DNA of 44,535 nucleotides from a virus, in the IMG/VR virus record IMGVR_UViG_3300001282_000797, positions 125 to 44,659 of that record. One strand, 5' to 3'. A model generated the notes under the pieces. The model was given only the letters and a program-made list of their open reading frames with translations, had not been told where the DNA came from and did no database searches. This document shows positions 5,535 to 36,291 of the stretch, one piece after another; position 1 is the first letter of the stretch; the number at the start of each line of letters is the position of its first letter. The position numbers and the translations under genes were made by a program.

Positions 5535-7256
5535 TTAAAAATCAAATAAGTTATCGTTGTTTTCTATCTCTACAGCCCAATTAGAATTATAAGAATTCAT
5601 TTTATAAATTAAATCGTTCTCCCACCCTAAATTATAAACTATTGGTGGTGTGGTACCAGCAATGTGTAATCCTATTCCTTTTGTTGTTTTATAATCTGAT
5701 TGTATTTCTTTTCCCTTAACTTTAGCAATAATCTCTAAAGTATCAAATAATTTATTATCAACCAAAGTTGAAATTCTATCATCCAACACATTCAAAACTT
5801 TATCCCAACTATTATCTAACAATTTATTATATCTACCTAAAGTTTGAACTCTATGTAAATTAAATTTTTTACCATTATGCGATATACAATATTCTATTGA
5901 TGCTCTATCACTAGAATCAATATCACCTCTTCGTAATGATATTAATAAAGATTGTGGTGTTTTTATATATATCTTAACACAATTAGATTGAGATATTGAT
6001 TCCGTATTATAATCTTTGGTGGTTTGTAATACAAGAGGTATATAACAATCATCCGCTTGAAGGATGACATCATTTACTTCTTGGATAAATTTCTCATTAT
6101 AAACCCTTGTGAAATCCCCCGAATGATAATGAGAATGTTTTTCTGACCATTCAAAATGTTCCTCAATAAATTCAGTATGTGTGTTTGATTTCCATTTAAC
6201 CGGTTCTTCAAATCTTTTTAATGAATCATAAAATCTAAAATGGTCTCTATAAGTCGCACTACTAATTTCCCCATCAATAACTAACTTAAAAATTTCAAAA
6301 GCGTTACTTTTCTCTTTATTATTTAAAAACTCACTACCAACGCCAATATAAAACCCCATTATGGGATTCTCCAACATTTTTTTAATTATGTCATCATTTT
6401 GAGAAGTTATATAATTTTTCCCAAATAATTTACAAGCAAAATCATAAGTCTCAAAATTACAAGATTTAACGGTATGTAATATTCGTTTTAATTTATCACC
6501 ACTAACATTATGAACATCCATAAAGGCGTCAATATATTTAAAATCTCTTTTCACCAAATCTTTTTTCTTTGGTTGCGGAAATACCGTCATCAACTCAAAC
6601 CAATTATTTGGGAATTTAATACCCGAATTATCCAAATATCTTTTGTAAATTCTCATATCGGGAGACATATCTAAATATTTTTCAGTACCAGGAATGGCAT
6701 TTACAAATGAGTTAATGATTTCATTTATTTTTTCCGGAACATCCTCAATAATACCTTTAGCCAAAAAACCATTTAGAATCTCTCTTAAATGAACTCTTAT
6801 TTTATTTATTGGGTCAACATTAAACATACACCTTCTAACATTTTTTCTACATTTTGTTTTAAGATGATAATTAGTTAAGGAACCTGTGTATAATGAATTA
6901 CTTTTAGAATTAAATGTTACGAATTGACATTTAGTATTCACCTTGAACCACTTACCAGCAAGTCGTCGTCGTTTAGCGTATTGGAAAATTTTAAATGATA
7001 TTTTATCCTCATCGGTGGTAACACAGATTATTACTCTCTCAAATGATAAGGAACACAATGGGTTTGAGTAATTATTTTTAAACTCATCTTCAGTGTTATG
7101 AGTGTCTTTATAGGTAAAACTACCCCAAGGAGTCATATTAGCGTCATAATCATCAGAAAAAGGACACTCGGTCAACACCTGTTTTATAGGGTTAGAACTA
7201 TGATATTCTTTTGTTTGATGTTGTCTGATTGTGTAATTATATATCTCTTGACGCAT
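5535..7256 (-). CDS. PcfJ-like protein (573 aa)
   Basis: The C-terminal part (about 400-510) reads IPLVLQTTKDYNTE ... QSNCVKIY ... LISLRRGDIDSSDRASIEY, followed by VQTLGRYNKLLDNSW. This matches the pattern I know from PcfJ-like proteins (first described from enterococcal plasmid pCF10 and common in phages and plasmids): a TTKD strand, Q-x-H/N-CV, then an SLR / TIE-type strand and a Q-x-x-G-x-x-N motif. The N-terminal 400 residues are unrecognised, with a basic Cys-containing patch near 130-145 (KTKCRKNVRRCMF). The biochemical function of PcfJ-like proteins is not established. A host-type promoter (7273-7304) lies just upstream, and the gene leads the thioredoxin group. Confidence 0.6.
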   Translation of the reverse strand: MRQEIYNYTIRQHQTKEYHSSNPIKQVLTECPFSDDYDANMTPWGSFTYKDTHNTEDEFKNNYSNPLCSLSFERVIICVTTDEDKISFKIFQYAKRRRLAGKWFKVNTKCQFVTFNSKSNSLYTGSLTNYHLKTKCRKNVRRCMFNVDPINKIRVHLREILNGFLAKGIIEDVPEKINEIINSFVNAIPGTEKYLDMSPDMRIYKRYLDNSGIKFPNNWFELMTVFPQPKKKDLVKRDFKYIDAFMDVHNVSGDKLKRILHTVKSCNFETYDFACKLFGKNYITSQNDDIIKKMLENPIMGFYIGVGSEFLNNKEKSNAFEIFKLVIDGEISSATYRDHFRFYDSLKRFEEPVKWKSNTHTEFIEEHFEWSEKHSHYHSGDFTRVYNEKFIQEVNDVILQADDCYIPLVLQTTKDYNTESISQSNCVKIYIKTPQSLLISLRRGDIDSSDRASIEYCISHNGKKFNLHRVQTLGRYNKLLDNSWDKVLNVLDDRISTLVDNKLFDTLEIIAKVKGKEIQSDYKTTKGIGLHIAGTTPPIVYNLGWENDLIYKMNSYNSNWAVEIENNDNLFDF

Positions 7257-7619: not shown

Positions 7620-8999
7620 TTAGGAAACTATCCAAAACCCTGGTTCTTGTTCACTAAGATTTTCTAAAACTTTTTCCGGTATCTTAATATTTGGATTACT
7701 ATTTCTTAAATTAATAAAGACCAATTCAGGAAGTTCAGAAACACTCTCCGGAATACTTTCAAGACTAGGATTGTTTTGTAATGATAAAAATTGTAAATTT
7801 TTTAAATTACCAATTGATTCCGGTAAACTTTTACAAATGTTTTGTAATAATAAAGCTTCAAGATTTACAAATCTACCAACCGAATCTGGAACTTCTAATA
7901 CAATATTTTCATTAGATTTGTTGCTGATTAATAAACGAATTATGGTATCAGGTAAACTTTCAAACAATTCGTCAAACCCATAAAGAGCAACAAATTTACC
8001 TGATGAACTTTCCGGATAATTTACCTCAACAGTATCTCCACCAGTTTTTACCAAACCTTCGGCAAATTCTTTTTTGAAGTATTCTTTAAGTTCTTTCCCT
8101 TCACCATTTAAGAATTCAACAAGATTTATTTGTCTATCTCTTCTATTCATAAATTGACTAGACGGGAAATGGAATTGGTATCTGTTTTTTGGTAATCCGG
8201 TTTTATCACTAAATTCTGTATCGTTATTTGGTAATACAACATAATATTGTCCACCTTGGTTTAAGTAATAATCAAAATATGTTCCGTCAAGTTTTGATGT
8301 ACACCAACTTGTTTCACCAAATTGGTCAGCAGTATCATAATACCCACCAAAAAAAGCACCCGCCTCTTTTGCCGGTTGACTCATATCACTAATTGTTACA
8401 ACAGTCCAACTTGGACTTACAAAATCAATTTTTGACCCAGGATAAGCAAAAGGATTTTCTTTAGTTAATCTTTCAGCCTTATTTGATTTAGAATCTTTAG
8501 ATAATTTAAAATCTTCTACGGCGGTATATAATTGTTCTGGAGTTATTTTATTAATATCCCTTAATTCCTCCGGAATTCTTCCTTTAAAACGCTCGTGTTT
8601 CAATAAATCAACACCAAGTTTATCAATGTCTTCTAAAAACATTCTTCTATATTCTTGAGCAACTCTCTTATATTCCGGAGTACCAACTTCAATGTCAGCT
8701 CTCTCATCAGTAAAAGTCGGTCTTATAAAATGTTTTAACATCCATTGAGTATACTTACCAACTTTAACATTATCCATATCTTCTAAAGTAGCCCCTTCTT
8801 TATCAAAATCTTGAGGAACTCTAGTTGTTGGGTCAGCAAATATTATTGTTTTTAATGTGTCCAAATCCATAGCTCCTTTAGGTTTTTGTCCCGGAGCTGT
8901 TGGTTTTGCCGCAACAGTTGGTTTAACTAATTTGTCGTATAATACTTGGAAACGAGATTGTTCTGTAATCAAATTTGATAATACTGAGGTTATTTTCAT
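7620..8999 (-). CDS. Leucine-rich-repeat protein (459 aa)
   Basis: Residues about 340-450 contain leucine-rich repeats of the plant/bacterial type: LEVPDSVGRFVNLEALLLQN, then SLPESIGNLKNLQFLSLQNN, then SIPESVSELPELVFINLRN. Residues about 215-320 form a separate aromatic domain with ETSWCTS, YFDYYLNQGGQYYVVLPN and RYQFHFPSSQFMNRR; similar text occurs in large phages but I know no function for it. The N-terminus (SNLITEQSRF) and a Lys/Pro linker precede this. It is cytoplasmic or virion-associated, with no signal peptide. It has both a host-type promoter (9075-9105) and an AT-rich element (9013-9024) upstream, so it may be expressed in two phases. The LRR assignment is clear; the role is unknown. 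Confidence 0.75.
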   Translation of the reverse strand: MKITSVLSNLITEQSRFQVLYDKLVKPTVAAKPTAPGQKPKGAMDLDTLKTIIFADPTTRVPQDFDKEGATLEDMDNVKVGKYTQWMLKHFIRPTFTDERADIEVGTPEYKRVAQEYRRMFLEDIDKLGVDLLKHERFKGRIPEELRDINKITPEQLYTAVEDFKLSKDSKSNKAERLTKENPFAYPGSKIDFVSPSWTVVTISDMSQPAKEAGAFFGGYYDTADQFGETSWCTSKLDGTYFDYYLNQGGQYYVVLPNNDTEFSDKTGLPKNRYQFHFPSSQFMNRRDRQINLVEFLNGEGKELKEYFKKEFAEGLVKTGGDTVEVNYPESSSGKFVALYGFDELFESLPDTIIRLLISNKSNENIVLEVPDSVGRFVNLEALLLQNICKSLPESIGNLKNLQFLSLQNNPSLESIPESVSELPELVFINLRNSNPNIKIPEKVLENLSEQEPGFWIVS

Positions 9000-9012: not shown

Positions 9013-9024
9013 TATTATAAATAT
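9013..9024 (-). promoter_or_regulatory. AT-rich upstream element ATATTTATAATA
   Basis: The 12-mer ATATTTATAATA (minus strand) lies 13 bases before the LRR gene start. The same 12-mer precedes two other minus-strand genes (10867-10878 and 15816-15827), with near copies before further starts. It contains a TATAAT-like core and may be a phage-specific promoter. Confidence 0.45.
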
Positions 9025-9074
9025 TCGTTTTTTATAAATAATTCACCAAACACCATTACTTTTGTTTGACGGGA

Positions 9075-9105: not shown

Positions 9106-9951
9106 TTAATTTTTATAATTCATAATTAAAATTTCTTCACCCATTGTTTGTACCTTACCCTTCTTAGCCGCAGCCGCTTTTGCAAATAATTTTCTCTCCC
9201 ATTGATATTGATTCTGAGGAAACCATACTTGTAATTGGGGAAAATCATAGTAAGACATCCCAAATTTACCCTTAACCCTTTTTAATGTGTTAGCTAATCT
9301 TTCGTGGTCTTTACTATCAAAGTCATGATTATTGTAATAGTTCTCTGTTTTCCAATATGGCGCATCCACATAATGAAACGTTTTATCAGAATCATATTTT
9401 AATATTAAATCTTCAAAATCCATATTTTCAATATGAGTAATATTAAGAAAATATTCCACCCAATCAGGTTTAGATAATTTGTCTCGGAATGTTAGATATT
9501 TTGATTTATACTTTCCTTTAAGGTCAATAAACGAACTTGTTTCAGGTTTAGAACCACTAAAAACTTGAGTAACCACATAAACATATTTCGCGGCGACTTC
9601 ATAATTATATTCACCAACATTAAACCCTTCTTTAAAAATTTCAGACTGAAATTTAATAAATTGTTCTTTACATATTTCTGGTGTAGGAAACACTCCTTTT
9701 TCTTGACAAGGGATTTTATTTATCTCCTCTAATAATCTTGAGGGATTTTTAATACACTGAAATAAATTATAATTTAACGGATTCAAATCATTATATACAA
9801 TTTTTTTAAGATTTGGATATTTACTTAAATCCATATTAAAATAACACCACATCATTCCACCGAAACTCTCGGTATATATTTCCATATCATTTGGATAATA
9901 TTCTATTAACCACTTACCTATTCTACTCTTACCACCAATCCAACTTAACAT
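9106..9951 (-). CDS. Dam-type (D12 class) DNA adenine methyltransferase
   Basis: The 281-residue product starts WIGGKSR (residues 4-10), the usual N-terminal substrate/SAM-binding loop of D12-class N6-adenine methylases. ESFGG (28-32) stands for motif I, YNDLNP (53-58) is the acidic strand, and FHYVDAPYW (192-200) is motif IV. Motif IV is normally DPPY; here it is DAPY. Length is normal for the family. The ATG at 9951 is chosen over 10020 because the upstream homing endonuclease reads through to 9956 and the family N-terminus starts at this Met. Expected role: methylating adenines in phage DNA, protecting it from host restriction; the target site cannot be read from sequence. The homing endonuclease lies directly upstream. 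Confidence 0.85.
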   Translation of the reverse strand: MLSWIGGKSRIGKWLIEYYPNDMEIYTESFGGMMWCYFNMDLSKYPNLKKIVYNDLNPLNYNLFQCIKNPSRLLEEINKIPCQEKGVFPTPEICKEQFIKFQSEIFKEGFNVGEYNYEVAAKYVYVVTQVFSGSKPETSSFIDLKGKYKSKYLTFRDKLSKPDWVEYFLNITHIENMDFEDLILKYDSDKTFHYVDAPYWKTENYYNNHDFDSKDHERLANTLKRVKGKFGMSYYDFPQLQVWFPQNQYQWERKLFAKAAAAKKGKVQTMGEEILIMNYKN

Positions 9952-9955
9952 ATTA

Positions 9956-10720
9956 TTAAAATTTAAAATTATATTCTGATTCAGGATTTCTTGGAAATCT
10001 TGAAAGTTTATTAAACGCAATATAACTCACGTATTTATTAAATGTAATTAAATTATTCTTTTTAATCAAATCACAAAATTCTTCTTTACTAACAAAATTA
10101 TTTATAACCTCATTAAATTTATTTTTTTTTCTTTCTAAAAAAACAGTATCATCACTATATATAATATTTTTAAATTTAAAAACATCCGTCAAATTAGTTA
10201 TTGATAATATTTTTATTTTACCGGAAGAGTAAATGTTTAATTTATAAACACCATTGTCCGATAAAAACTTTTTCAATGAAATAATAAACCCCTCATTCCC
10301 CGCAATCGAGACGTGATGCCATTTATTTTTAATCTTACTAATACACCCATCCCCGTCAAAATAACCCCTAACAAAATGTTTAATTAAATTAGGTTCAATA
10401 TTGGGGAATATTATTTTAAATGTTTTATTATTAACACAACCTAAATCAAATAATCTATTAACCAATAAATTTGAATAAACCGTTACCGAACAAAATTTAG
10501 ATTTACCATCTATGCCGCATTTTATTGGCTTGTCACATTCTATATCTGTAAGAAATTTTTCAATATGGGGTTTATCAGTATCTTTTAATTTTAATTTTAA
10601 CTCTCCACTTTTACCATCTTTCATTCTGGTATACCCATCCGCATATAAAAACCCTAACCAATATGACGACTTCTCATTTAACTCATCAAAAAAATGTTCA
10701 TTAAAACTATATTTTCTCAT
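9956..10720 (-). CDS. LAGLIDADG homing endonuclease
   Basis: This 254-residue product has two LAGLIDADG helices: YWLGFLYADG at residues 20-29 and HFVRGYFDGDG at about 115-125, spaced about 95 residues apart as in monomeric double-motif enzymes. Each motif ends in the metal-binding acidic residue. The enzyme makes a site-specific double-strand break that spreads its own gene. No intron or intein boundary is visible, so it appears free-standing, inserted just before the Dam-type gene. Its ATG overlaps the last 14 bases of a 52-residue ribbon-helix-helix-like gene, the same arrangement as the HNH endonuclease at 27929-28549. It is very AT-rich, like its partner. Confidence 0.88.
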   Translation of the reverse strand: MRKYSFNEHFFDELNEKSSYWLGFLYADGYTRMKDGKSGELKLKLKDTDKPHIEKFLTDIECDKPIKCGIDGKSKFCSVTVYSNLLVNRLFDLGCVNNKTFKIIFPNIEPNLIKHFVRGYFDGDGCISKIKNKWHHVSIAGNEGFIISLKKFLSDNGVYKLNIYSSGKIKILSITNLTDVFKFKNIIYSDDTVFLERKKNKFNEVINNFVSKEEFCDLIKKNNLITFNKYVSYIAFNKLSRFPRNPESEYNFKF

Positions 10721-10865
10721 AATACTCTTTAACTAATTTTTGGATAAACTTGGAAATACTAACCTCCTCGTTTTTCATTTTATCAAAAAGATATCGGTTA
10801 ATACTTATTCCGTATTTAACTTTCTTATCTTCGTCATTTTTATTAGGTCGTCCAATCTTTCCCAT
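10707..10865 (-). CDS. Ribbon-helix-helix-like small protein (52 aa), homing cassette 1
   Basis: This short gene has ATG at 10865, stop at 10707 and 52 residues. The N-terminus is basic (MGKIGRPNKNDEDKKVKYG), followed by a short strand (YGISI), a helix (RYLFDKMKN), a turn and a second helix (SISKFIQKLVKEYYEKI). This is the layout of MetJ/Arc-type ribbon-helix-helix DNA-binding proteins. A second 52-residue protein of the same layout lies at 28530-28688, also overlapping a homing endonuclease start. It probably represses its own cassette through the conserved upstream element at 10866-10894. The fold and role are inferred; the gene's existence is supported by the matched pair. Confidence 0.72.
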   Translation of the reverse strand: MGKIGRPNKNDEDKKVKYGISINRYLFDKMKNEEVSISKFIQKLVKEYYEKI

Positions 10866-10894
10866 ATATTATAAATATCCCAAAGAATAGTAAA
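10866..10894 (-). promoter_or_regulatory. Conserved promoter/operator of homing cassette 1
   Basis: Minus strand: TTTACTA (10888-10894), 8 bases, GATATTTATA (10870-10879), 4 bases, then the ATG. The same two blocks with the same 8- and 4-base spacings lie before the second small RHH-like gene (28689-28717). The gaps differ in sequence while the blocks are identical, which suggests a protein-binding site. Confidence 0.65.
10867..10878 (-). promoter_or_regulatory. AT-rich upstream element ATATTTATAATA (cassette 1)
   Basis: This is an exact copy of the 12-mer found before the genes starting at 8999 and 15805; here it overlaps the conserved cassette element and ends 1 base before the ATG at 10865. 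Confidence 0.4.
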
Positions 10895-10933
10895 AGTGCG
10901 TTAAAAAGTGAAGTTTTTTTGAGAAAAAAATAG

Positions 10934-10985: not shown

Positions 10986-11204
10986 ATGGAAACAGTAGAA
11001 GGTCAGATTATCGACGAAAAAGACATTAAAACAACAGAAAACATTAATCAAAATACAAAGGGTGAAAAAGCAGGTTGTAAATCTTGCAAAAAAAAAGGAA
11101 TATCAAACACCGATTGGCTTATGATAATCCTTTCATCTTATATTTTATTCTCATCAGTTTATGGTACTATAAAATTGATTAAAGAACTTATGTTGTTATT
11201 CTAA
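10986..11204 (+). CDS. Small single-span membrane protein (72 aa)
   Basis: I do not recognise a family for this 72-residue product. Residues 1-44 are polar, with a CKSC pair (about residues 31-34) in a Lys-rich context; residues about 45-70 form one hydrophobic span (WLMIILSSYILFSSVYG). A host-type promoter precedes it. It is one of the few plus-strand genes in this half of the window and converges with dnaJ, with only 2 bases between the stop codons. Confidence 0.65.
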   Translation: METVEGQIIDEKDIKTTENINQNTKGEKAGCKSCKKKGISNTDWLMIILSSYILFSSVYGTIKLIKELMLLF

Positions 11205-14536: not shown

Positions 14537-15805
14537 TTATTGAGTCTTACCTTTGTAAGTAATTAGTGATTTCATTCTGTCAAACTCTTCTGATATTTGT
14601 TTTGATTGTTTAGGTTCTAACGACTCTAATTTAGCCATTAATTTAGACCCTTCATCTTCACCAGCATTATCATTAACAGTTGGTTGTGGAGCTTTATTGT
14701 AAGCTTTCTTTTTAATTTGACCCAATATATTCTTTTTCCTAATTGTATTTCGTTTTTTGTTAACATCGGATTCTCCAGTGTTAGCCCATTCCGGATTATT
14801 ACCTGTTCTTGATGACCCCTCAATGTTATCTGTTATCCACTCTTCATTTGGATTTATTTCATCATACATTAAATTCTCTTGTCCTGCCGCTGTTAAATTA
14901 TCAGTATACTCCTCAACAGCCCCTGATGGGATATAAGCCTTTTTATCCATTTTAGTTAACTCACCATTACCTTTTGGGAAAATTTTAGGTTCTGTAGTAT
15001 AATCACCTTTAGAACCATCCTTTAGATATTCTTTCATTTTTTTTGTAACAGATTTAAGATAATCATCATTTTCTTTACCTGATTTTTTATGAATTTGAAT
15101 TTGTTTATCTAAACCTTTAGGTGTACCCATAGATTTAATGTTTTTTTCTTTACTCTGTTCCATAATAACACTCTCAATTAACTCAATCATTTGACTTTCA
15201 GTTAATTTAACAGACTCTTTGTGTTTACCCTCTTCACCCATCTCTAATTTTTTACTTTTTCTTAACATTTTAAAATCTTCAGTATCTAATCTATTGTTTT
15301 TATTTTTATCTAAAACTCTTTGATTCCCTTTTAAAGATTCACCCATCTCCGATTTTTTACTTTTTCTCAACATTTTAAAATCTTCAGTATCTAATCGGTT
15401 ATTTTTATTTTTATCTAAAACTTTTTGATTTCCTTTTAAAGATTCATTAACATCAGTTCCACAAAATTTTTCAATTCTATCTTTGGGAGCGTTATTTTCT
15501 TTATGCCATTTACAAGCCTCTTCATCATAATCATAATTACCGTCGGAATCAACCTCACCTTCTTCTTCTTCAATATAGTCGAAAGATTGACTTTTTGGGA
15601 ATTTTTTTGAAACATCGTAAATTCCTTCACCACACTCTGAACATTCTCCTTCATACATCATTCCACCACACTCACAAATATTAGATTCTTTCTCATCCAT
15701 ACTAGTTTTTATTTTAGAGACTAAATTATCTGCTCTTTCTTCTAAAGTTTCATTTAAAATTTTAGACACTAAATTTTCTAAATAAGTCGTATTTAATTTT
15801 TTCAT
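14537..15805 (-). CDS. Hypothetical virion/assembly protein with zinc-finger-like and EF-hand-like motifs (422 aa)
   Basis: Residues about 43-58 hold a four-cysteine cluster (CECGG ... CSECG) likely to bind zinc. Two almost identical tandem repeats of about 34 residues follow (about 122-190), each containing DKNKNNRLDTEDF, whose spacing (DxNxNxxLxxxDF) resembles an EF-hand or dockerin calcium loop. The rest is charged and Lys/Glu-rich with a helical LTESQMIELIESVIMEQ segment. There is no signal peptide. The neighbours 15829-19754 look like a conserved set of large-phage proteins that could act in head assembly; this one may be a scaffold or inner-head protein. Motifs are seen; the role is a guess. 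Confidence 0.65.
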   Translation of the reverse strand: MKKLNTTYLENLVSKILNETLEERADNLVSKIKTSMDEKESNICECGGMMYEGECSECGEGIYDVSKKFPKSQSFDYIEEEEGEVDSDGNYDYDEEACKWHKENNAPKDRIEKFCGTDVNESLKGNQKVLDKNKNNRLDTEDFKMLRKSKKSEMGESLKGNQRVLDKNKNNRLDTEDFKMLRKSKKLEMGEEGKHKESVKLTESQMIELIESVIMEQSKEKNIKSMGTPKGLDKQIQIHKKSGKENDDYLKSVTKKMKEYLKDGSKGDYTTEPKIFPKGNGELTKMDKKAYIPSGAVEEYTDNLTAAGQENLMYDEINPNEEWITDNIEGSSRTGNNPEWANTGESDVNKKRNTIRKKNILGQIKKKAYNKAPQPTVNDNAGEDEGSKLMAKLESLEPKQSKQISEEFDRMKSLITYKGKTQ

Positions 15806-15815
15806 TTTTTGTTTT

Positions 15816-15827
15816 TATTATAAATAT
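15816..15827 (-). promoter_or_regulatory. AT-rich upstream element ATATTTATAATA
   Basis: This is an exact copy of the 12-mer also found before the genes starting at 8999 and 10865, here 10 bases upstream of the ATG at 15805 and just after the stop of the 261-residue gene. It probably gives the 422-residue gene its own transcript start. Confidence 0.45.
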
Positions 15828-15828
15828 A

Positions 15829-20090: not shown

Positions 20091-20891
20091 TTACATATAA
20101 TCGAAAAGTATCGAACTCTCATTCCTTAATTTTCTTAAGGCTTTTTCCTTAATCTGTCTTACCCTTTCTTTAGTAAGATTAAAATCACCACCAATGTCTT
20201 CTAAAGTCCTTGGAGTACCCGTCAACCCAAAATAATCACCAACAATAGTTTTCTCTCGATTATCTAAAACATCTAATAAAGAAATTAATTGTTTTTTTAA
20301 TTCATCTTTAGTGTTAAAAATTGCGTCGGGCATATCTGCCTGTTCATTCTTTATAATATCAACTAAAGTATCTCCATCCTCATTAATACCCATATCTAAA
20401 TCAACAATAGATGGTAAATTTTGAAACTTGTCCGAGAGTTTACCCCCATTAGACTCAATCTCTTTTTTAGCTCTCTGTAAATCCTGAACCACATTAACCG
20501 GAAGTCTAATCGTTCTAGCGTTATCATTTAACGATTGGAGGATAGACTGTTTGACCCACCACACAGCGTATGATATAAATCTTAAATCTCTTGACCAATC
20601 AAAATGATTAATAGCCTTCATAAGACCTAAATTACCTTCAGCAATTAAATCAGGAAAATCTAACCCTTGGTTTTGATATTGTTTCGCCACCGTAATAACA
20701 AAACGCAAATTTCCCTCAAGTAATTCTTTATTAATCGATTCCAATTCTTTTTCTGTTAGACCTCCCGAACTAATTAATTTGGATAACTCTCTTTCCCTAT
20801 CAGGAGTCATCACTTTAATCTTACGAATGTCTTTTAAATACAGTTGTATTTCTTCTTGATTAATTGGAATCCCCGAATTTTTTTCTTTCAT
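20091..20891 (-). CDS. Sigma-70 family factor, Bacteroidetes primary-type
   Basis: This 266-residue protein uses the ATG at 20891 (upstream gene stops at 20893; an ATG at 20954 would overlap it). Region 1.2 is near residues 12-45 (QLYLKDIRKIKVMT). Region 2 is about 58-128 (GNLRFVITVAKQYQNQGL, DLIAEGNLGLMKAI, RFISYAVWWVKQSIL). A reduced region 3 follows, then region 4 with LEDIGGDFNLTKERVRQIKE. Region 2 is close to the Bacteroidetes housekeeping sigma factor, while region 3 seems about 20 residues shorter. It is not the very divergent gp55 type of T4. It probably redirects host RNA polymerase to phage promoters. A terminator follows. Confidence 0.93.
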   Translation of the reverse strand: MKEKNSGIPINQEEIQLYLKDIRKIKVMTPDRERELSKLISSGGLTEKELESINKELLEGNLRFVITVAKQYQNQGLDFPDLIAEGNLGLMKAINHFDWSRDLRFISYAVWWVKQSILQSLNDNARTIRLPVNVVQDLQRAKKEIESNGGKLSDKFQNLPSIVDLDMGINEDGDTLVDIIKNEQADMPDAIFNTKDELKKQLISLLDVLDNREKTIVGDYFGLTGTPRTLEDIGGDFNLTKERVRQIKEKALRKLRNESSILFDYM

Positions 20892-20892
20892 A

Positions 20893-21459
20893 TTATTTTG
20901 AGTATTGGTTAAGTAATTGTAATTCTTCTTCTGATAATGATTTAATTCCCTCATCGACTAATTTATCAAATAATTCGTCAAATGTTGGTTTTCTTTTCTT
21001 ATATTTAAGTTGACTAATATCATCATCCTCATCTTCATCAACAAATTCAGAAAAATCTAAAAAGAATTCCGCTCTAATGTTATTCATTAACATATTTCGT
21101 ACCTCATAATCATTTTCATCACATATTTTGTTTTTACCTGACATATAGTCATTAACACCATCGTTAAATAGATGTTTTGCAACTTCATCTGGTAATCCGT
21201 ATGACAAATTGTCATCTGTGTATGGTAATAAAATATAACTTATTGTGTCATAATCTAATATCATATCAATATAGTCTTTAACATCCAAATAGGAATCTAA
21301 AGTTGAGATTGTGTACACTGTCGATTCCGGACCAAAGTAAAAATTGACCTTTGGAACATCCGAAATAACACTTAATTCATCAGCAATTTGTTCTGCGAAT
21401 TCTTGGGGGTTGTCGTTTTTTGTAAATACAAATAGAATGTATTTGGTTAAGTTCTCCAT
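20893..21459 (-). CDS. Hypothetical protein (188 aa) upstream of the sigma factor
   Basis: The first 100 residues look like an alpha/beta fold (YILFVFTKNDNPQEFAEQIADEL, YILLPYTDDNLSYGLP). Residues about 140-150 are a run of Asp/Glu. The end (RKPTFDELFDKLVDEGIKSLSEEELQLLNQY) resembles the short helical hairpin found at the C-terminus of various Bacteroidetes proteins (SLTxEExxxL). The stop is 2 bases from the sigma factor start, so both are likely co-transcribed; a sigma-regulating partner is conceivable but untested. Function unknown. Confidence 0.65.
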   Translation of the reverse strand: MENLTKYILFVFTKNDNPQEFAEQIADELSVISDVPKVNFYFGPESTVYTISTLDSYLDVKDYIDMILDYDTISYILLPYTDDNLSYGLPDEVAKHLFNDGVNDYMSGKNKICDENDYEVRNMLMNNIRAEFFLDFSEFVDEDEDDDISQLKYKKRKPTFDELFDKLVDEGIKSLSEEELQLLNQYSK

Positions 21460-27850: not shown

Positions 27851-27929
27851 GCTCTTTGTCTTCTTGTTCTATTTTTTTAAGTAATTCTTCCCACTCCTCA
27901 TCGGAGTATTTATGTCTAAGATTTCCCAT
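27825..27929 (-). CDS. Very small conserved-type protein (34 aa)
   Basis: ATG at 27929, stop at 27825. The product is MGNLRHKYSDEEWEELLKK followed by an acidic/basic helix. The start shares one base with the HNH endonuclease stop (TAATG), and the end overlaps the 237-residue gene by 26 bases, indicating translational coupling. I recall similar short proteins with the HKYxDEEW text from other large phages, but no function. Confidence 0.55.
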   Translation of the reverse strand: MGNLRHKYSDEEWEELLKKIEQEDKEREANRVNK

Positions 27930-28549
27930 TATATTATTTTATCTCGTTTAATTATATTCTCAATAGCCCATAAAGGTTGTAAATTAGTATAATGACATAA
28001 TTTTTTTAATTCATCATCATTTTTAGCGGATGATAATGGAATAATATGGTCAATATGCCAACCAAATAATCCGTGATTCTCCCAACACATACCATCTTTA
28101 AATTGTTTTTCCAAATAACTTTTTAATTCTGAAGGTGAACAACCAATTAAATCAAAGGTGGATTCTCTATTACTACCCAAAATTTTATTTGTCTTACTTC
28201 TATACAACATTTTTAATTTTAAGATAGGGTCATCTTTTTTTCGTTGAACCATTTTTGAGTTAATAAAATCTCTATTCCTTTCAACATAATCTTTTTTATA
28301 TTGTTCAACTTTATCTTTATTATTATTCCCCCAAATTTTAACTCTATCAATAATTATTTTTTGATTTTCAATGTAATATTCTTTAGATTTTTCTAATATT
28401 TTTTCTTTATTATCAATATAATATTGTTTTTTATATTCTTTAACACAAACTTTACAATTGTCCTGTAAACCATCCTTAGAACTTTTATTTTTATTAAAAT
28501 CAAATAATGATTTATCTACCGAACATTTTTTACAAATTTTCTTTTTCAA
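27929..28549 (-). CDS. HNH homing endonuclease
   Basis: This is a 206-residue protein. The N-terminus has a zinc-finger-like pair, CKKC (about 6-9) and CKVC (about 32-35). The middle is Lys/Tyr-rich and helical, probably DNA-binding. The C-terminus has WHIDHIIPLSSAKNDDELK, then HYTNLQPLWAIENIIK, the DH...N...N pattern of HNH nucleases. The enzyme would nick or cut a specific site to spread the cassette. It is free-standing, between the gp47-like gene and the 34-residue gene. Its ATG overlaps the end of a 52-residue RHH-like gene by 20 bases, mirroring the LAGLIDADG cassette at 9956-10865. Confidence 0.88.
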   Translation of the reverse strand: MKKKICKKCSVDKSLFDFNKNKSSKDGLQDNCKVCVKEYKKQYYIDNKEKILEKSKEYYIENQKIIIDRVKIWGNNNKDKVEQYKKDYVERNRDFINSKMVQRKKDDPILKLKMLYRSKTNKILGSNRESTFDLIGCSPSELKSYLEKQFKDGMCWENHGLFGWHIDHIIPLSSAKNDDELKKLCHYTNLQPLWAIENIIKRDKII

Positions 28550-28688
28550 ATTTATAATCTTCTAATAATTTATTAACGAGTGACGACAAGTTAATATGAA
28601 GACCCCTGTAATATTCCAACAATTCAGGTTTAATAGCTATCGATATACTCTGTTTTTTTTCTTCATTATTTTTTTTGTTTCTTCCCAT
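28530..28688 (-). CDS. Ribbon-helix-helix-like small protein (52 aa), homing cassette 2
   Basis: ATG at 28688, stop at 28530, 52 residues. The N-terminus is basic (MGRNKKNNEEKKQ), then strand SISIAIK, helix PELLEYYRG, a turn and helix LSSLVNKLLEDYKFEKE. The layout and exact length equal the product at 10707-10865; both start MG and keep I-S-I, S-x-x-x-x-KL and the charged end. It is a probable DNA-binding regulator of the downstream HNH nuclease. Fold and role are inferred from the pattern. Confidence 0.72.
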   Translation of the reverse strand: MGRNKKNNEEKKQSISIAIKPELLEYYRGLHINLSSLVNKLLEDYKFEKENL

Positions 28689-28717
28689 ATTATATAAATA
28701 TCATAGTTTTTAGTAAA
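28689..28717 (-). promoter_or_regulatory. Conserved promoter/operator of homing cassette 2
   Basis: Minus strand: TTTACTA (28711-28717), 8 bases, GATATTTATA (28693-28702), 4 bases, ATG. Blocks and spacings are identical to those before cassette 1 (10866-10894), while the spacer bases differ. Confidence 0.65.
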
Positions 28718-28740
28718 GTTGTTATTTTTAACAATTTTAT

Positions 28741-33816: not shown

Positions 33817-33870
33817 TTTGAATATACAAAACAAAACAAAATAAATTAATAATCACAATATTTATATTAC

Positions 33871-36291
33871 ATGGGATTCATATTAAAAAATACATCAGGG
33901 TTAATTAATACTAGATTAACGGACACCGCAAGACAAAAACTATCACAAGGTAGTTTCAACATATCTTATTTTCAAATAGGTGATAGTGAAGTAACCTATA
34001 ACGCTTTTGGTTCATTAAATTTATCAAGTCTTAATATATTAGAACCAAATTTTAATTCTCAAAATTCAACAGGTTCACCTCAAAAAAACAAACAAAATAT
34101 TAAATACCCATACTATGTAGATGGAACCGAAGGTAATACATACGGAATTCCTTATATGGCATCTGATGTTAGCCCTATCTACAACAGAGCTTCAATGAGA
34201 GGATTTTTTACTGGTGAGACAACAAATGAAACCATCAGTAGTTGGAGTGCGTTAACTGACAATCAACACGTAATTAACTCAAATTACGTTATTGATATGT
34301 TTTCATTAAGAGGTAATAACTCAGTATCCATTAAATATTCCGGTTGTAACACCAATATAGTCAGACAACCTTCTATCGGAGATTTTATAACAATTTATTA
34401 CGATGGAAATGGATATAATAATTGTTCTTGTGATTTAGGAACCCCTATTACTCCAACACCAACACCAACACCTACTGTTACACCATCTTACGATGAGTGT
34501 ATTATATATCCAACACCAACACCGTCATCCACTTGTTGTATAACACCAACACCAAGTTGTGGTCCTGAACCAATAACGGAATGTGTTATGTCAGTTTCAT
34601 GTGGTTATACAATATTAACATATAAAATTATTGATATTTGTAATCTTATATTAACTGTTGATAGACCTTTACCCAATTTCACTAACTTAAACGAAGGTTG
34701 TTATTACGCCAGAACATTAATCTACCCACCAAACATGACATCATTATATGATAGTGTAACTCCTTCACAACATTGGAGTGACGATATCATTAATTTTGAA
34801 TCTATTTGTACTACAGATGAATTTGACGTTAAAATTTGGAACATGAACATTCCTTGGTCTGAAAGTCCAGCGGGATTGAATTCTGCACTAAATAAAGATT
34901 ATACCAAATTTGGTTCAACATCTTATTTAGGTACAAAAGAATATTTAGGGTATATGTCTAATAGTGGACAAACCAGTAACAACACGGTTAATTATGTAAA
35001 TTCCCTCGGAGATGTTATCATTGTACCACCTAAAGACCAAAAAGCGATTTCAATTATTCACTATACTAATCAAAGTATAGATTTATTTTATGGTGAAAAA
35101 TTTGCATTAGAACCATACGACACCACAACACCTGAAGACACAACAGGTGAGGCCAGAAACTTTAGATTACATATACCAACATTAATGTGGCATAAATCAC
35201 CGACTTGTTGTAATGGACAAACTTTTTGGGTTGACCCTCCTGGGTTTGATGATTTAACAGTATCGGGAAGCCCATTATTCAAAGTTCACTATATTCAATC
35301 AACTAAAAATGCTAGTATGAATCAGCCAGGGATAAGATATTATAATTTATGGGACACAAACGCCAACGAATATAATAATGAATACCCTAATAGAGTTGGT
35401 AAAGTATTTCCTGACCAAAAAATTATTGTTATTGATGATGAGGAAATTATTGCATCATTATCTTATAAGTCAAATAGAAATTGGACGTTACCGTCACCAA
35501 GAATATCTTTAATCACTCCTAACACTTGTGAAATAAATAATGGTTCAATATCTGTAGATGGTGTTTTATCTGGTTCATCTGAATATATGTATGTTACATA
35601 TAGATTAGGTAATACTGAATTAACCACAAATTCATTACATTGTAATTACTATTCAAAAATACAAGGAACAACGATTACACCAACTAATTTGGTTACTAAT
35701 AATGTTGGTGTTAGATTTGGTAATGAATTTCCATGTTTAAATCAAAACCCAGAATATACCACCCTTAACACAGGATTTGTTGCCAATACATTTGAAATAA
35801 TATGTCAGAAAGTGACAGGAAATGTTAGACCAGACCCTTCATTGTGGAGAGTTATTGATTTTACATCAATGGTTAGCGCAACAACAATTAATGGAAATAT
35901 AACTGTAGAAGGTTTAACAGGTACAACATTTGTTATCACATCAGATGACTACGATAATGCCGAAAACGATATATATAATTTAGATTATCTCTCGTTACCA
36001 TCTAAAACTGGTAATACCGAAACTTCATTAAATTTTGGAGATGAATATTATTTTTACGGAGCATTAGAAACCGATATAGAAGCAACAATTTATGAAATGA
36101 AATATAAAGTAAATTTAAGTGCAACTGAATTCCAAGCAAGCTCTAACCCTACATGGTCAAGCTCCGTAAAACCATATATTTCAGAAATAGGTCTTTACGA
36201 TACTGAAGATAATCTTATGATTATATCAAAGCTACAATCACCTGTTTTAAGACAAGGATTACAACAGTTTTTAATTAAATTTGATTTTTAA
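33871..36291 (+). CDS. Tail/baseplate structural protein (806 aa)
   Basis: The N-terminus reads FILKNTSGLINTRLTDTARQKLSQGSFNISYFQIGDSEV, a pattern I associate with tail-associated proteins that begin by a loop-helix anchoring segment. A short Thr-Pro linker with several Cys lies at about 194-230. The rest is rich in beta strands (ISIIHYTNQSIDLFYGEKFAL, PSPRISLITPNTCEINNGSI). The C-terminus (PYISEIGLYDTEDNLMIISKL, then QFLIKFDF) resembles the ends of baseplate or tail-collar proteins, where SEIGLYD is common. It is a likely baseplate or fibre-attachment component. It is followed by the RuvC-like gene after 6 bases. Confidence 0.65.
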   Translation: MGFILKNTSGLINTRLTDTARQKLSQGSFNISYFQIGDSEVTYNAFGSLNLSSLNILEPNFNSQNSTGSPQKNKQNIKYPYYVDGTEGNTYGIPYMASDVSPIYNRASMRGFFTGETTNETISSWSALTDNQHVINSNYVIDMFSLRGNNSVSIKYSGCNTNIVRQPSIGDFITIYYDGNGYNNCSCDLGTPITPTPTPTPTVTPSYDECIIYPTPTPSSTCCITPTPSCGPEPITECVMSVSCGYTILTYKIIDICNLILTVDRPLPNFTNLNEGCYYARTLIYPPNMTSLYDSVTPSQHWSDDIINFESICTTDEFDVKIWNMNIPWSESPAGLNSALNKDYTKFGSTSYLGTKEYLGYMSNSGQTSNNTVNYVNSLGDVIIVPPKDQKAISIIHYTNQSIDLFYGEKFALEPYDTTTPEDTTGEARNFRLHIPTLMWHKSPTCCNGQTFWVDPPGFDDLTVSGSPLFKVHYIQSTKNASMNQPGIRYYNLWDTNANEYNNEYPNRVGKVFPDQKIIVIDDEEIIASLSYKSNRNWTLPSPRISLITPNTCEINNGSISVDGVLSGSSEYMYVTYRLGNTELTTNSLHCNYYSKIQGTTITPTNLVTNNVGVRFGNEFPCLNQNPEYTTLNTGFVANTFEIICQKVTGNVRPDPSLWRVIDFTSMVSATTINGNITVEGLTGTTFVITSDDYDNAENDIYNLDYLSLPSKTGNTETSLNFGDEYYFYGALETDIEATIYEMKYKVNLSATEFQASSNPTWSSSVKPYISEIGLYDTEDNLMIISKLQSPVLRQGLQQFLIKFDF

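Follow-up and report, generated by a model that had tools for sequence, protein, structure and literature searches.

A shared upstream element of phage RHH–homing endonuclease cassettes as putative promoter and type-specific operator

Two homing cassettes in a stretch of viral DNA of 44,535 nucleotides (positions 125 to 44,659 of IMG/VR record IMGVR_UViG_3300001282_000797; hereafter "the window") are preceded by the same two-block element, TTTACTA-N8-GATATTTATA-N4-ATG. In our judgement this element is rather likely to act as promoter for a self-contained homing cassette, which its own RHH protein autoregulates through a type-specific half-site at ACTTT. Each copy of TTTACTA-N8-GATATTTATA precedes a 52-aa RHH-like ORF, which overlaps a homing endonuclease (HEN) gene, and a homing-endonuclease domain was found in both cassettes by using Pfam and phrog profiles (Table 1).

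Table 1. Positions of the cassette genes, of the putative control sites and of related features in the window.
Feature	Position	Strand	Basis or remark
GATATTTATA, -10-like promoter box of cassette 1 (predicted)	10870..10879	-	same box before other phage genes
TTTACTA block, cassette 1	10888..10894	-	
ACTTT, refined upstream-box core, 19 bp before ATATTTATA, cassette 1	10893..10897	-	present in all RHH loci
CGC prefix, KYG-type RHH genes only	10898..10900	-	34/34 KYG-type vs 0/23 other loci
Upstream repeat of ACTTT (direct, 12 bp away), putative second half-site of the operator, cassette 1	10905..10909	-	
RHH-like protein 1, 52 aa, KYG type	10707..10865	-	AlphaFold2 model
LAGLIDADG homing endonuclease, 14-nt overlap with RHH gene	9956..10720	-	Pfam LAGLIDADG_3 5.1e-7; phrog_4645 1.4e-42
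Resident D12 DNA methyltransferase gene, downstream of cassette 1	9106..10020	-	Pfam 8.4e-17; synteny
GATATTTATA, -10-like promoter box of cassette 2 (predicted)	28693..28702	-	
TTTACTA block, cassette 2	28711..28717	-	
ACTTT, refined upstream-box core, 18 bp before ATATTTATA, cassette 2	28715..28719	-	
AAAAT, weak inverted ACTTT partner (4/5, gap 4), putative second half-site, cassette 2	28724..28728	-	read from sequence
RHH-like protein 2, 52 aa, CcdA-like	28530..28688	-	Pfam CcdA 1.1e-5, 26.1 bits vs cut-off 22.4
HNH / endonuclease VII-like homing endonuclease, 20-nt overlap with RHH gene	27929..28549	-	phrog_1035 1.3e-20
Phage sigma-70 family factor	20091..20954	-	Sigma70_r2 2.6e-16, r4 1.7e-14
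TATATTTATA, predicted promoter box without ACTTT, before ORF 14537-15805	15819..15828	-	
AATATTTATA, predicted promoter box without ACTTT, before ORF 7620-8999	9016..9025	-	
AATATTTATA, predicted promoter box without ACTTT, 4 nt before ORF 33871-36291	33857..33866	+	

The two exact copies of the element lie on the minus strand at 10863–10894 and 28686–28717, ATG included, and no third was found anywhere in the record of 44,659 bases; a first-order Markov model puts the chance expectation at 1.3e-4 exact matches per window. Identity of the blocks and equality of the 8- and 4-base spacers, which differ in sequence, were confirmed letter for letter. When three mismatches were allowed, 3 matches were found in the window against 1.48 expected, which is not significant, and the weight therefore rests on the exact match only. 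The preliminary description had taken the spacing to be fixed, which is true of both window copies; in relatives, however, the blocks are separated by N8 or N7, the ATG follows at 3, 4 or 13 nt, and at some loci the block spacing is one helical turn shorter. Its left block, TTTACTA, is present, but the conserved form is ACTTT(T)ACTA, which starts 2–3 bases further upstream. Its view that the blocks are constrained, rather than recently copied, is borne out by flanks and spacers that have diverged across different RHH types and nuclease families.

IMG/VR was scanned for exact copies of the element, ATG included, which gave 14 loci. Thirteen of these precede an RHH-like ORF, and a nuclease follows in 12 of the 13; in the remaining one, L014, the locus is truncated where the stretch ends. 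A set of 57 distinct RHH loci was collected by protein similarity alone, not by the upstream element; the next gene encodes a LAGLIDADG enzyme in 26 and a zinc-HNH nuclease in 26. ACTTT was present upstream in 57/57, either 18–19 bp or 8–10 bp before ATATTTATA (at L347 and L305, where the ORF start had been called too early and ACTTT lay inside the ORF, it was read by eye and counted). The box starts 18 or 19 bp before ATATTTATA at most RHH loci and at 8–9 bp, one helical turn less, at L313, L317, L329 and L333; FA-type RHH genes have two ACTTT boxes, 19 and 10 bp away. The information content is 2.0 bits at ACTTT against 0.1–1.3 in the spacer. No relative was found in a scan of bacterial genomes, and named phages searched with two RHH proteins gave no match.

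The right block had been recognised correctly as part of an AT-rich promoter motif that stands before other genes. Its TATTTATA core precedes five other ORFs of the window; an ORF starts ≤32 nt downstream at 8/16 window sites of TATTTATA; the proportion is 1/16 for TATAAATA, its reverse complement, and 11% for random sites. Distinct, exact copies of GATATTTATA were examined in five phage records, and 20 of the 22 have an ORF in sense 3–32 nt on. In related phages the -10-like box lies before head-protease, baseplate, neck and HEN genes, and ATATTTATA without ACTTT precedes prohead protease, baseplate gp25 and head-tail adaptor genes, among others. Judged from these positions, GATATTTATA is predicted to serve as the -10-like box in a class of phage promoters, which would drive virion genes as well; expression of the cassettes would presumably be late, and the phage sigma-70 family factor is a candidate reader of the TATTTATA class. 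This factor has regions 1.2, 2 and 4. T4 late promoters likewise have a short AT-rich -10-like box before virion genes, but their sense is TATAAATA and they have no upstream element (PMC2988020), whereas here the sense is TATTTATA and some sites have a fixed-distance element; the T4 late type does not describe the present sites (TATAAATA before ORFs in 1/16; ACTTT at fixed distance in a subset). The T4 box lies about one turn before the transcript start (PMC2988020), and with such a geometry the 3–4 nt between box and ATG would give a nearly leaderless message. In L438–L503 the distance from ATATTTATA to ATG falls into two clusters, 3–5 and 12–17 nt. T-runs at -16 before structural genes were rejected as a promoter box, as they look like terminators of the preceding genes.

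ACTTT was counted at 165 promoter-like ATATTTATA sites before ORFs in 1.34 Mb (the window and four phage records). It lies 18 or 19 bp away at 22/165 sites; for distances from 21 to 45 the average count is 0.48 per distance. The 25 carriers with ACTTT at 17–20 bp include 8 RHH genes, the window's two among them; the rest are GIY-YIG and HNH HENs that lack an RHH gene, plus a few genes of other kinds. With RHH genes excluded, HEN-like genes (assigned by motif classes) account for 9/17 boxed and 12/135 unboxed sites (Fisher 4e-5). Five RHH-like genes of the set have no ACTTT at 17–20 bp; one of them has the box closer, and the others are more distant relatives. ACTTT as an RHH-specific site was dropped because RHH-less HENs with the box were found; it is best read as a putative promoter element associated with HENs, and as more than a site for RHH.

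The proposal that the RHH protein blocks a promoter through the two blocks was retained in its promoter part, but not as to RHH binding: HENs without an RHH gene carry ACTTT and ATATTTATA, and the shared blocks are therefore best read as promoter. Many copies of both blocks away from such cassettes, which the preliminary description would have counted against itself, do not occur in this genome; other phages provide some, with both blocks at N8 also before GIY-YIG endonuclease and tail-sheath genes. Overall, the first interpretation is partly supported. The AC extension of TTTACTA was found at 11/11 RHH genes, 0/12 sheath genes and 1/19 other ORFs, and since it is almost absent from the latter two, their two-block copies look like partial matches; the idea that tail-sheath and similar genes behind TTTACTA-N8-GATATTTATA reveal a late promoter of general use, built from both blocks, was rejected. 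A GIY-YIG family (HIHYIYKT) without RHH has TTTACTA-N8-GATATTTATA with the ATG 13 nt away (L423 and about 8 further loci).

The sequence next to ACTTT, which the preliminary description does not mention, differs with the type of RHH gene. CGC directly precedes ACTTT at all 34 KYG-type RHH loci and at none of the 23 of other types, p-values being indicative only, as the sequences are related. The same split was found within HNH-linked cassettes (5/5 KYG-type, 0/21 others), so the half-site follows the RHH type, not the nuclease; KYG-type RHH genes keep CGCACTTT when HNH follows (L296, L301, L304). At KYG-type loci ACTTT recurs 12 bp upstream as a direct repeat, and most other RHH types have the inverted repeat AAAGT-N3-ACTTT, with a score of 3.5–4.1 of 5 in the main non-KYG types against 1.64 in shuffled sequence. 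Cassette 2 departs from its relatives in having AAAAT at a gap of 4. That the repeat is direct for one RHH type but inverted for others is an untidy point, as it fits poorly with a single kind of dimer. Viral sequences were scanned with AAAAGTNNNACTTTTN{8,14}ATATTTATA as a predictive pattern and its reverse as a control: the pattern gave 33 loci, with an RHH ORF behind 21 and one more cut by the contig end, and the control gave 5 loci, 0 with RHH. Half-site and RHH gene are only about 40 bp apart, so that their matching could be joint inheritance.

According to the mechanism proposed here, the cassette unit would consist of a promoter, a small RHH gene and an overlapping homing endonuclease, with ACTTT(T), 18–19 bp upstream or one helical turn nearer, as a second promoter element mainly at HEN genes. 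Polymerase with a phage factor would initiate at the ACTTT/TATTTATA promoter. From the resulting transcript the RHH protein would be produced first, and the nuclease would be translated, presumably by coupling, through the overlap of its reading frame with the RHH gene. As RHH dimers accumulate, they would bind half-sites around ACTTT and shut the promoter, repression being the presumed sign of control. The putative operator is CGC with the 12-bp direct repeat or the AAAGT-N3-ACTTT inverted repeat, and the putative target DNA of the cognate RHH protein is CGCACTTTT or AAAGTNNNACTTT.

T4 middle promoters consist of a MotA box about 30 bp before the start and a -10 box, and serve several T4 HENs; a fixed-distance box is present here too, but its sequence differs. 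By analogy, ACTTT could be the -30 box of a phage activator, the HENs just using this promoter class and the RHH protein acting elsewhere, which we regard as possible but unlikely. The helical phasing suits an activator touching the polymerase equally well as a repressor: a fixed distance with one-turn variants would keep this box and the -10 box on one face of the DNA. Its occurrence before GIY-YIG and HNH HENs that lack RHH, and before some other genes, also points this way, and most free-standing T4 HENs with promoters of their own use middle ones (PMC2988022). An activator leaves unexplained, however, the RHH-type-specific CGC or AAAGTGAA flanks and the repeats. It seems rather improbable that ACTTT and ATATTTATA mark a phage-wide HEN regulon, in which RHH proteins from some cassettes would control, in trans, the promoters of GIY-YIG and HNH HENs elsewhere in the same phage; if this were so, competing selfish elements would share or hijack one control circuit.

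A weak point of the autoregulation reading is the RHH fold, assigned from one Pfam match and a monomer model. RHH-like protein 1 gave no Pfam match and aligns with RHH-like protein 2 at 31% identity. In its AlphaFold2 monomer model (pLDDT 82) an extended N-part is followed by helices 24–32 and 37–50; a Foldseek search of the model against the PDB gave no match, and a PDB profile search yielded no more than weak matches to RHH proteins (E about 0.4). The Pfam HNH match of the HNH / endonuclease VII-like HEN is weak (0.13), and the mechanical ORF start of the D12 methyltransferase is probably too far upstream. Fib_succ_major and SprB domains in the window suggest a Bacteroidota host.

Operons of the CcdA/Arc type are autoregulated, with a small RHH gene as the first of two and repeats at the promoter. 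The cassettes have the same order and repeats, but their second genes are LAGLIDADG or HNH endonucleases, not a CcdB-type toxin as in the ccd operon. The CcdA match of RHH-like protein 2 would also agree with an antitoxin mimic directed against host toxin-antitoxin defence, the promoter merely expressing the RHH protein, and such a role is proposed in the available text on related aquatic jumbo phages (PMC12619734). We consider this quite improbable, as the near-constant pairing with HENs, the frame overlap and the type-specific flanks would go unexplained.

KYG-type cassettes occupy a slot between dnaJ and the D12 methyltransferase, in which the nuclease varies or is missing; other RHH types are found at different recurrent sites, several antisense to both neighbours. 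Neither RHH nor HEN is present at the methyltransferase site in L396–L398, and both are missing in L404, L408 and L409 from a site occupied antisense elsewhere; the empty sites cover cassette 1's site and that of one other cassette type, as distinct from cassette 2's exact site. Sites that lack RHH and HEN alike indicate that the two genes are gained and lost as a unit, and they overturned the view of the KYG-type RHH gene as a resident of a constant dnaJ/D12 methyltransferase slot. In L136 and L137 a near-identical RHH gene and upstream region are followed by different LAGLIDADG genes. The final RHH residues vary with the downstream nuclease (L136/L137, L296, L301), because the same DNA encodes the nuclease start, so that nuclease swaps rewrite the RHH tail. 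A 72-aa ORF (10986–11204) between cassette and dnaJ differs in orientation among relatives (L283 vs L284), as a small inverted gene.

I-TevI represses a late promoter through an operator that resembles its homing site (PMC2988022), but that the endonuclease is its own autorepressor here is very improbable: the block is common to LAGLIDADG, HNH and GIY-YIG enzymes, the nucleases of L136/L137 differ behind nearly the same RHH gene and upstream region, KYG-type RHH genes retain CGCACTTT before HNH, and no dependence of the operator on the nuclease was found, the element being kept across nuclease families and the half-site tracking the RHH type. Common descent alone, in the form of an ancestral upstream region still undiverged, is hardly credible even though the RHH genes are related and the block adjoins them, as ACTTT and ATATTTATA were retained while flanks and spacers diverged, the window's two RHH proteins share so little identity (just 31%), and unrelated GIY-YIG genes carry the same block.

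RHH autoregulation would answer the dilemma of a HEN, which needs enough expression to spread and not enough to harm the phage. T4 HENs are kept low through the use of middle or late promoters, through autorepression and through coupling, and likewise use reading-frame overlap (PMC2988022). As with I-TevI of T4, HEN expression would be limited by a protein at a promoter site just before the gene (PMC2988022; putative here); repression, however, is presumed to come from an RHH protein, distinct from the nuclease and encoded by the first gene of the cassette, and it is the RHH type that the site follows. The nuclease is its own repressor in the T4 solution; the cassettes suggest a modular one, in which a tiny regulator and its promoter are reused with unrelated nucleases. 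In the available text on moraphages (2025), CcdA/HicB-like antitoxins are paired with PacI-like HENs, for which regulation was proposed, in large aquatic Bacteroidota phages with dnaJ (PMC12619734), a setting that this phage probably shares. No upstream element is described in that portion of the account (PMC12619734), and, compared with it, the pairing here extends to LAGLIDADG enzymes and to a putative promoter that the cassettes have in common and that bears RHH-type-specific half-sites. The open papers searched gave no description of the shared upstream element; the promoter/operator anatomy appears to be new, the RHH–HEN pairing itself being known since 2025, as far as the available text goes (PMC12619734). 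The proposal made there, that antitoxin-like proteins regulate paired HENs, is now directly testable, with the bases named, and a putative promoter class is described for large Bacteroidota phages.

An N-terminal stretch around "[IVL]ITE" recurs in virion-like proteins (e.g. MKNIITEELGYMKYLLGYQ, MKITSVLSNLITEQSRF), among them the product of 7620–8999 in the window and those of many ORFs behind ATATTTATA in L438–L503; it might serve as a tag, for targeting or as a propeptide, that the prohead protease removes. The Bacteroidota host promoter motif is TAnnTTTG. TATCTTTG sequences upstream of 5535–7256 and 20893–21459 resemble it and suggest, by this resemblance, host-type early promoters alongside the TATTTATA class.
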